This document shows, in pieces, positions 59,023-61,291 of a stretch of 64,000 nt of DNA. The translations under genes and the position numbers were made by a program. Where the stretch lies: NCBI GenBank assembly GCA_028867785.1, contig JAGWFS010000005.1:62001-126000 (forward strand), written 5' to 3'. Under the pieces are notes generated by a model. The model had not been told where the DNA came from. It saw only the letters and a list, made by a program, of their open reading frames with translations, and made no database searches. Source of the DNA: Nitrososphaerota archaeon. Its GTDB lineage: Archaea > Thermoproteota > Nitrososphaeria > Nitrososphaerales > Nitrosopumilaceae. Within the stretch, counting starts at the first letter, position 1. Every line of letters begins with the position of its first letter.

Positions 59023-59783
59023 TGCATCCGATATTCCGCCTGGTAAACAGGAACCTTACCATCTCGCTCAACATGGGCTTTGTGATATGGCAGGTGATAT
59101 TTCCTGTAATCTACATCTTTGTTGCCGGGTTTGCATACACTGCACTGATTCACAATGTCCCGTTTGGCTCGAAAAACCTGGACTATCCAGCGTTCATCGC
59201 TTCCGGGATGATTGGGTTTAACATAATGAACAGCACGCTGATCTCGGGAATCATCATATGGAATGACAGAAGACACGGAATGTTTGAGCAGATTCTTGTG
59301 GGGCCGTTTACCCGGGCGCAATACATACTCTCAAACGTGTATACTATTGGAATCATCGGGCTTTTCTCTGCAGGACTGATAACTGCAATTGGGTATCCTT
59401 TGTTTTTCAAGTCCGTTGCGTTCAACGTCTTTACTGTGCCGCTTGTCGTGTTTGCATCAATCACGGGAGCGATTCTTTTTGGCTCTATCGCGTCAATCAT
59501 ATCAACCAGGCTAAAGTCAAGCGAGGGGTTCAACGTCATAATAAACACCGTATTTTTGTTTTTTGCGTTTGTAAGCACGGCATTTTATCCAGCACAGGGT
59601 GCCCCGCCAATACTTGCAACTGCATTCTATCTCAACCCGCTGACATATCTAGTGGATGTGGTGCGAGCAGGCATATTTGGAAACTTTACTGATACCGTGG
59701 GCTATGAGATGGCGGCGCTGGTTGCGGCAGCAGTCGTGCTCTTTAGCATAGCGACAAAACTGCTCTCAAGGCTTGAGATCTAG
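59022..59783 (+). CDS. ABC-2 type permease
   Basis: The 253-residue membrane protein has six hydrophobic helices (for example FVIWQVIFPVIYIFVAGFAY, LSNVYTIGIIGLFSAGLITA) and an ABC-2 signature near LNPLTYLVDVVRAGIFG. It pairs with the preceding ATPase to export an unknown compound. Confidence 0.92.
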   Translation: MHPIFRLVNRNLTISLNMGFVIWQVIFPVIYIFVAGFAYTALIHNVPFGSKNLDYPAFIASGMIGFNIMNSTLISGIIIWNDRRHGMFEQILVGPFTRAQYILSNVYTIGIIGLFSAGLITAIGYPLFFKSVAFNVFTVPLVVFASITGAILFGSIASIISTRLKSSEGFNVIINTVFLFFAFVSTAFYPAQGAPPILATAFYLNPLTYLVDVVRAGIFGNFTDTVGYEMAALVAAAVVLFSIATKLLSRLEI

Positions 59784-59815
59784 TGGATTCAAAAATTGAA
59801 CTACATCTAAAACCA

Positions 59816-60007
59816 TTAATTTTTGGACTTGGGGCGTCTCTCGCTCCTTGTCTCCCACTTGGACAAAAAGTCCTTTACTATGTCCACAATTATCTGGTTT
59901 CTGTTTGTATAGCCCATCTTGTAAGAGTCATGTGTTTTGAGGAACTCATCGAGCCTTTCTGCTAGGCCTAGAGGAATGTTTGCACTGACCCAGTCCTTTC
60001 TTGCCAT
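59816..60007 (-). CDS. Ribbon-helix-helix regulator, 63 residues
   Basis: The 63-residue protein WVSANIPLGLAERLDEFLKT ... NRNQIIVDIVKDFLSKW has the beta-strand, two-helix form of Arc/CopG-type repressors. Its ATG (60005-60007) lies inside the first of three palindromes. It is divergent from a second such gene. Confidence 0.7.
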   Translation of the reverse strand: MARKDWVSANIPLGLAERLDEFLKTHDSYKMGYTNRNQIIVDIVKDFLSKWETRSERRPKSKN

Positions 60008-60026
60008 ACGGTAACTTTACCGTATG
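60005..60026. promoter_or_regulatory. Palindromic operator 1
   Basis: Arms CATACGGTAA and TTACCGTATG flank two bases (CT), making a perfect 22-base inverted repeat. It includes the start codon of the minus-strand ribbon-helix-helix gene, so binding would block its expression. Confidence 0.75.
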
Positions 60027-60055
60027 TCTTCATTTAAGGTTACTTTGAATAAATA

Positions 60056-60073
60056 TACAGTAAGATTACTGTA
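60056..60073. promoter_or_regulatory. Palindromic operator 2
   Basis: Arms TACAGTAA and TTACTGTA flank GA, an 18-base perfect inverted repeat of the same family as the two outer ones. It lies between the divergent starts where promoter elements are expected. Confidence 0.75.
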
Positions 60074-60089
60074 GATTTTTATATTTGGG

Positions 60090-60111
60090 CATACAGTAAC
60101 TTTACTGTATG
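60090..60111. promoter_or_regulatory. Palindromic operator 3
   Basis: Arms CATACAGTAA and TTACTGTATG flank CT, a perfect 22-base inverted repeat. Its last three bases are the ATG of the plus-strand ribbon-helix-helix gene. Confidence 0.75.
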
Positions 60112-60285
60112 GGTAAGAAAGCCAAGGGATTCACAACTGCCACGCTAAAGGAGGCCGTATTCAAAAAACTTCGACAGCTGTCAGACCTTGAAAAGAGGAC
60201 TGTATCAAACGAGCTTGATGTAATTGTTGATTTCTATGTGTCAAAGAACAACCTAAAACTTGTGGAGGTTTCACAGGTTGTTTGA
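60109..60285 (+). CDS. Ribbon-helix-helix regulator, 58 residues
   Basis: The ATG inside operator 3 opens a 58-residue frame, GFTTATLKEAVFKKLRQLSD ... RTVSNELDVIVDFYVSKNN, with the strand-helix-helix order of CopG-type repressors. It is divergent from the other such gene and its 3' end overlaps the start of the next exported protein gene. Confidence 0.65.
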   Translation: MGKKAKGFTTATLKEAVFKKLRQLSDLEKRTVSNELDVIVDFYVSKNNLKLVEVSQVV

Positions 60286-60910
60286 GGGTGCAGGCAGATG
60301 GAACTTTGCCATGCTTGCAGCCATGACAACTGTAATGCTATCCGGTACAGGTATGTATGTGCCAGAAATTTTTGCAAATGCCGCACAGCAAACAGTCTGT
60401 GTGCTGCAGCCAATTGATCAGTCGGTACCAGTACACATTGTCAACATGACAACAAAGGTTCTTGCACAGCACAATGAAACCACAAAATATATCGGGTTGG
60501 TTCAGGAACTGACCGACAGGTCAAACGCTGGATGTGACCATGTAATCCAGTTCCAGCGGGCAGTAAACAGCAATTATGACTGGGTGGACAAGACCGCCCA
60601 CTATACGATATCGGGAAATACACTGACACTTTATACCGACACGACCCCGGTAGACATACCGTCTAGCATATCATTTGGCGGTGTGGGATATGCGGTGGGA
60701 AGCGGAGGCACTGGCGGGGACGTTTTTGCTCCGGCCATGACAAACTGGAGCTGCTTTACAGAAGCCCTGGCAACATACCATCAGAACATCGGGTCTACCA
60801 TGCGGGAAAGCTGCAATCCGTATGCGGGAGCACAGCATGTAAGCGACAGCGTGCCGTTTTATATAGTACACAAGTCGCTTGAGCAGGCGCTTGAAAAGAT
60901 GCATCTCTGA
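60278..60910 (+). CDS. Exported protein, unknown
   Basis: From the TTG at 60278 the product is about 210 residues and carries a signal segment (FAMLAAMTTVMLSGTG ... FANAAQQ). The mature part contains four cysteines (TVCVLQ, AGCDH, WSCF, ESCNP) that may form disulfides, and a GGVGYAVGSGG loop. A strong GGAGGTT at 60263-60269 lies nine bases before this TTG, which decides the start against TTG 60260. It lies in the same transcription direction as the regulator before it. Function unknown. Confidence 0.6.
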   Translation: MFEGAGRWNFAMLAAMTTVMLSGTGMYVPEIFANAAQQTVCVLQPIDQSVPVHIVNMTTKVLAQHNETTKYIGLVQELTDRSNAGCDHVIQFQRAVNSNYDWVDKTAHYTISGNTLTLYTDTTPVDIPSSISFGGVGYAVGSGGTGGDVFAPAMTNWSCFTEALATYHQNIGSTMRESCNPYAGAQHVSDSVPFYIVHKSLEQALEKMHL

Positions 60911-60920
60911 CAGCCAGAAC

Positions 60921-60930
60921 CGTTTAAATG
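60921..60930 (+). promoter_or_regulatory. TATA-like element for small membrane protein gene
   Basis: CGTTTAAATG lies about 27 bases upstream of the ATG at 60956, as in leaderless archaeal transcripts. Confidence 0.4.
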
Positions 60931-60955
60931 TAAAAATTGCGTATTGTACCCTGGA

Positions 60956-61201
60956 ATGCAGATTCGAAGAAGAAGCAGCCTGTGGTTCTTGCTGCCAGTT
61001 GCGTTTAACGTACTGGGAGGAATAGTTGCCTACTTTGTCATCCGAGACGACGACCCGAAAAAGGCCAGAAGCTGCCTTTTACTTGGAATACTGCTTGCTG
61101 CAATACCTGTGCTCCTGTTTGTCGTGCCGGTGCTTGTTGGGATTGCCGTCCTGCCCCATTTCATGCCTCACATGTCAATGCAGCACATGAACTATGTATG
61201 A
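60956..61201 (+). CDS. Small two-helix membrane protein
   Basis: The product of about 81 residues has two hydrophobic helices (SLWFLLPVAFNVLGGIVAYFV and CLLLGILLAAIPVLLFVVPV) joined by a charged loop (RDDDPKKARS) and a Met/His-rich tail (PHFMPHMSMQHMNYV). The tail could bind copper or another metal. A TTG at 60944 is an alternative start. Function unknown. Confidence 0.55.
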   Translation: MQIRRRSSLWFLLPVAFNVLGGIVAYFVIRDDDPKKARSCLLLGILLAAIPVLLFVVPVLVGIAVLPHFMPHMSMQHMNYV

Positions 61202-61291
61202 CATGCAAATCTGAATAGTTGATCTTGATTGTTTTTTCCAGCGACTCGCATTGCAAACCAGGACTTGGTAGTATACTTGATAAGAACCAGT

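Follow-up and report, generated by a model that had tools for sequence, protein, structure and literature searches.

What do two small divergent genes control when a palindrome lies on the start codon of each of them? The question is raised by a locus in a 64,000-nucleotide stretch of DNA (hereafter the window) from an archaeon of the genus Nitrosotalea, the acid-soil ammonia-oxidising archaea that include Candidatus Nitrosotalea sp. TS. A first-pass annotation had described this locus as a tight feedback switch composed of two divergent ribbon-helix-helix (RHH) regulators, three inverted repeats of one family and, as a possible output, an exported protein encoded downstream. We followed up this description with an orthologous set of seven loci from six Nitrosotalea genomes (our own and five others, of which G005 contributes two loci), a genus comparison of 37 genomes, and an order-wide comparison of 400 genomes. 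The two G005 copies have identical neighbours and probably represent two strains within one assembly; a duplication was set aside because the same neighbours flank both copies. As judged from its sequence, the locus is probably an autorepressing divergent regulator module that controls a secreted protein and forms a self-contained cassette.

The two regulators and their palindromes

The minus-strand gene RHH1 (59816-60007) encodes 63 aa and the plus-strand gene RHH2 (60109-60285) 58 aa (both sets of coordinates include the stop codon), and both products are probable ribbon-helix-helix regulators kept in all seven loci. Their relatives in the five other genomes share 78-100% identity (88-100% for RHH2 across the seven loci), and the nearest named relatives of RHH2 come from Candidatus Nitrosotalea sp. 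TS and several Thaumarchaeota/Nitrosopumilaceae MAGs. In profile searches, RHH2 hit Pfam RHH_5 with E=0.0017, weaker than the curated cutoff, while RHH1 had no Pfam match and gave weak matches to the RHH region of NikR (E=0.013 from a single sequence, 0.0061 from a family profile of 14 members) and to an Arc-like PHROG (E=0.012). The AlphaFold model of RHH1 (single chain, mean pLDDT 66) has two helices where expected and an N-terminal strand that is not formed; a fold search with this model matched no solved RHH structure, though one chain taken alone says little about a fold that forms as an intertwined dimer. The ribbon-helix-helix identity given by the first-pass annotation is plausible but weak in its profile support. 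The predicted DNA-contacting N-terminal strands differ between the two proteins (WVSANIP vs FTTATL).

The RHH1 family is spread across the order, frequently with added C-terminal domains, and viral contigs yielded no relatives of RHH1 or RHH2. One such C-terminal domain, with a cysteine-rich motif of DCIHV type, recurs in many genomes of the order, where it follows RHH-like N-termini (e.g., L083, L018, L022, L019, and the first regulator of L098); it is possibly metal-binding and has no Pfam name as far as seen. RHH proteins are also among those listed for thaumarchaeal integrated elements (PMC6563490).

The three inverted repeats reported by the first-pass annotation were found within 107 bp (60005-60111), the outer two holding the start codons of both regulators. 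Site 1 (60005-60026), CATACGGTAA-CT-TTACCGTATG, is a perfect 22-bp palindrome with arms of 10/10 that overlaps the RHH1 ATG (60007-60005, minus strand) and has its core, TACGGTAA-CT-TTACCGTA, at 60007-60024. Site 2 (60056-60073), TACAGTAA-GA-TTACTGTA, has arms of 8/8 and lies directly next to the presumed BRE that precedes the RHH2 TATA box. Site 3 (60090-60111), CATACAGTAA-CT-TTACTGTATG, is again a perfect 22-bp palindrome with arms of 10/10; it overlaps the RHH2 ATG (60109-60111, plus strand) and has the core TACAGTAA-CT-TTACTGTA at 60092-60109. Alignment with relatives reduces the conserved unit to the 18-bp sequence TACRGTAA-N2-TTACYGTA: in the 22-bp versions the outer CA/TG is contributed by the start codon, and relatives do not preserve its mirror image.

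Palindromes of this kind are rare. For arms of 8 nt or more that are separated by a 2-nt gap, simulation predicts 0.87 per 64 kb, and the window holds five, three of them at this locus, including both of its palindromes with arms of 10. Three such palindromes together occurred in none of 20,000 simulated local stretches. Genome-wide counts were obtained via pattern searches. The GTAA-N2-TTAC core on which the first-pass annotation had based the family is indeed present in all three sites, but this 10-bp core was dropped as a motif because its frequency in the genome is at or below chance (34 copies vs 59 for the reversed control). The full 18-bp motif, in contrast, occurs in its own genome with 0 or 1 mismatch at three sites, all at this locus, and does not recur elsewhere as an unrelated repeat might. 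Among the 37 genomes of the genus, allowing up to one mismatch limits it to the seven loci and a single site in G024, which was set aside as a chance site located within a coding region. At two mismatches, the own genome has one extra site, on contig C327 in a foreign-looking region, which was likewise set aside as probably foreign sequence.

As a separate observation, the ORFs flanking G000:C327 near 2727 (L008) are not thaumarchaeal in look, and our own assembly (G000) measures 2.5 Mb compared to 1.5-2.0 Mb for most relatives, so that part of it may be foreign.

Conservation of sites and promoters

Each regulator gene has a TATA-like box 28 bp from its ATG: CTTAAA on the minus strand for RHH1 (60033-60038), within the invariant block TTCATTTAAG, and TTTTTATAT on the plus strand for RHH2 (60076-60084), invariant in all seven loci. 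In relatives this distance is 27-28 bp for both genes, with one case of 30. In archaeal promoters, such a position of the TATA box puts the transcription start at or near the ATG. Both mRNAs are thus probably leaderless, and sites 1 and 3 would cover the transcription starts.

All seven loci retain the RHH1/RHH2 pair in the same orientation together with the three sites. Of the 48 half-site columns in the seven-locus alignment, 46 show no variation; the same holds for 30 of the 59 noncoding columns outside the sites (mainly within the two TATA-like blocks), while every one of the six central columns varies. This degree of identity persists between loci whose synonymous divergence is often above 1 and reaches 1-2. 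Site 1 consistently reads TACGGTAA, with G at half-site position 4, whereas sites 2 and 3 read TACAGTAA, with A at that position in 27 of 28 half-sites (the lone exception is one half-site of site 2 in L030). Spacing is fixed at 36 bp from site 2 to site 3 (7/7 loci) and varies between 48 and 50 bp from site 1 to site 2, except for 401 bp in G029. It is therefore strongly supported by these comparisons that the operator sites are maintained by selection and specific to this locus, i.e., that they are conserved, locus-specific inverted repeats at promoter elements, as is characteristic of autoregulated operators. Feedback on both divergent genes, as originally suggested, gains strong support in this way from sites that are unique to the locus in 37 genomes and kept by selection. 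The regulators themselves are also constrained, with dN between loci of 0.00-0.06 for RHH2 and 0.03-0.15 for RHH1 (dN/dS of 0.05-0.28 for RHH1 where computable).

The deviating spacing in G029 (L035, G029:C54:33123-33466) results from a 344-bp insertion between sites 1 and 2, flanked by an 8-bp target duplication, CTTTGATT, through which no site was lost. Either close promoter spacing is not essential or the G029 copy is decaying. The right part of the insertion (ca. 104 bp) recurs in G029, G018, G026, and G005 at 72-82% identity, so that it looks like a mobile-element remnant; a search against Rfam gave no convincing match.

The exported protein and its cassette

Downstream of RHH2 lies a gene for a protein of 210 aa (60278-60910, plus strand) that starts with a TTG overlapping the RHH2 stop and is preceded by a Shine-Dalgarno sequence, GGAGG (60264-60268, plus strand), within the RHH2 3' end, in agreement with the strong ribosome-binding site noted in the first pass. 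Relatives show a similar overlap of RHH2 stop and exported-protein start, which indicates that the two genes are translationally coupled. The protein has a hydrophobic, export-signal-like N-terminus and four invariant cysteines, and it is probably secreted. It evolves faster than the regulators (dN between loci 0.07-0.57), had no significant match in Pfam, NCBIfam, or PADLOC, and gave a structure model of low confidence (pLDDT 51.6). Its family was found in 11 of the 37 genomes of the genus and, in a search of 400 genomes of the order, nowhere else. The frame of the exported protein is broken in G017 (Ca. Nitrosotalea sp. TS, L032), where RHH1, RHH2, and the three operators are intact.

RHH1, RHH2, and the exported-protein gene form a cassette of ca. 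1.15 kb between an ABC permease gene and a gene for a small membrane protein. Most other genomes of the genus lack it at this spot. In 14 genomes with a readable neighbourhood, permease and small membrane-protein gene are close together or separated by other insertions and the RHH pair is missing, so that the cassette has been gained or lost as one piece. A fragment of the exported protein remains at this spot in G034, and in G020 a truncated permease adjoins the small gene. Integration at the nearby tRNA-Gln was considered and is not supported, since the small membrane-protein gene intervenes and no integrase is seen there. The region from the ABC permease to tRNA-Gln (59783-61290 in the window; L132-L146) is a variable spot in the genus that elsewhere holds small insertions, HicAB-like genes, and other ORFs, differing by genome.

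The exported protein has relatives encoded elsewhere in G021, G032, G033, and G036 (28-37% identity where the pairwise search detected them), behind another divergent regulator pair; in G016 the exported gene sits at a contig end. Regulator one of this second module contains KRKPTVAIKDDVYEKAK and, at its C-terminus, a DCIHV-type domain also present in long RHH1-family proteins (BLASTP of two sequences, E=5e-10). Regulator two, with the pattern RTTLQYDHxTSKxLYYDAK...RTKVQQLRELI, overlaps or abuts the exported gene and had no similarity to RHH2 in BLASTP. Neither regulator gave a clear match in Pfam, their RHH assignment coming from the sequence pattern. The operator of the second module, GACATGYYWTTGACATGTC, is unrelated to the 18-bp site, lies on both start codons, and has complete matches in the genus only at second-module loci. 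Because a different pair with a different operator is arranged in the same way, the layout appears to be the constant rather than regulator sequence or operator; both descent from a common module and repeated assembly are possible origins of this shared layout. Tentatively, these modules could be interchangeable secretion cassettes, in which a fast-evolving secreted family sits behind a divergent pair with operators on both leaderless starts, and in which the pair and its operator code were swapped as a unit at least once with the architecture kept. That the exported protein is the likely output of the module, a possibility raised in the first pass, is supported by the conserved coupled operon and by the recurrence of this gene order with another regulator pair.

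Proposed control and known systems

In the mechanism that we propose, RHH1 and RHH2 would be small DNA-binding proteins that form dimers, each expressed from one of two divergent promoters whose transcripts are probably leaderless. The 18-bp site would be read by one or both of these proteins, probably as two dimers with one per half-site; this binding and the ensuing repression are what we infer from sequence. When occupied, sites 1 and 3 would cover transcription start and start codon and block RNA polymerase, and it is for this reason that we propose autorepression of both genes. Site 2, abutting the BRE of the RHH2 promoter, may exert extra control there, so that the operon of RHH2 and exported protein with its two sites would be the more tightly controlled output. 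The presence of one motif at all three sites fits the cross-reaction of the two proteins that the first-pass annotation suggested. The departure of site 1 from sites 2 and 3 could reflect either affinities that are graded or distinct preferences of RHH1 and RHH2, and the fixed G or A at position 4 of the half-sites may cause differing affinities for promoters or proteins.

How the two proteins divide this work could be read in other ways. One possibility that deserves weight, though we favour it less than not, is that only RHH2 or only RHH1 reads the sites and the other serves as partner, co-repressor, or anti-repressor or binds elsewhere: in its favour, all three sites share a single motif although the predicted DNA-contacting strands of the two proteins differ; against it, site 1 is consistently distinct from sites 2 and 3, as if two specificities were important. 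The same distinction, together with the divergent pair, the one motif common to both starts, and the uneven number of sites (two for the RHH2 promoter, one for that of RHH1), would suit a bistable switch in which RHH1 and RHH2 repress their own and each other's promoter and the exported protein is on or off, like Mnt and Arc of P22. Such a switch seems rather unlikely, however, given that the G029 insertion parts the promoters with every site retained; a purely homeostatic pair of autorepressors, the reading opposed to it, predicts identical sequence.

Explanations outside of transcriptional autorepression fare worse. RHH proteins are common as antitoxins, and a small coupled operon with patchy presence across the genus could be a toxin-antitoxin or defence module with the exported protein as its harmful partner, but we consider this improbable: none of RHH1, RHH2, and the exported protein matches anything in PADLOC at E<=1, the supposed harmful partner has an N-terminus resembling an export signal as well as four conserved cysteines, and two divergent regulators are an unusual layout for such modules. 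Least credible of all are RNA hairpins that would control translation, even though perfect inverted repeats overlap both start codons, because a transcript starting around the ATG (with TATA-like boxes 28 bp upstream) would retain no more than the final bases of each palindrome, site 2, which is conserved equally, falls outside both predicted transcripts, and an Rfam search returned only the tRNA.

The autorepressing module that we favour follows a principle that is already known from phage and archaeal-virus systems. The P22 repressors Mnt and Arc are both RHH proteins in a divergent arrangement with ant behind arc. At the P22 immI locus, these two repressors (mnt, arc) govern one output gene, ant (PMC2629481). 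The seven Nitrosotalea loci likewise combine two divergent regulators with a control region common to both and a likely output gene that follows one of the two, repression being a proposal there; unlike these loci, immI has bacterial promoters and other operators, no sequence relationship is shown, and its output is an intracellular antirepressor rather than a predicted exported protein. Closer by host is the Sulfolobus plasmid-virus pSSVx, an archaeal case of a divergent pair of DNA-binding protein genes, C68 and orf60, of which orf60 is a CopG homologue and C68 has sites at a BRE and midway between the promoters (PMC5569661). There, however, C68 is absent from the RHH list, the sites are not palindromes on both starts, and the pair is borne by a mobile element. 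RHH repressors of archaeal viruses are known to occupy sites that overlap the transcription starts of the genes encoding them (PMC5569661), and SSV1 F55 and SIRV1 SvtR are small archaeal RHH repressors, as RHH1 and RHH2 are proposed to be, but F55 reads tandem ATAGATAG repeats and both are single regulators with no divergent partner described. In another genus of the same family, G290 encodes a divergent RHH1/RHH2-like pair (profile matches of E=1.6e-9 and E=5.5e-6, respectively) with the same orientation and similar spacing; it differs in having a CATGCGGTAA half-site on the RHH1 start with no inverted repeat after it, and the exported protein was not seen there. The G290 pair (L092, G290:C12:1-4825) adjoins a phage-type integrase and mobile-element-type ORFs, probably as part of an integrated element, and a mobile-element origin of the RHH1/RHH2 pair is therefore possible. 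The Nitrosotalea module is new in that operators occupy both start codons, that its likely output is secreted, and that a second version uses a different operator.

Few experiments have addressed how ammonia-oxidising archaea regulate their genes, and this module offers a sharply defined 18-bp operator, two candidate 7-kDa repressors, and predicted starts and output, all testable in vitro. Its two versions, with one layout and different operators, would make it possible to examine how repressor pairs co-evolve with their sites, and the four-cysteine secreted protein is a lead on what acid-soil archaea place outside the cell.
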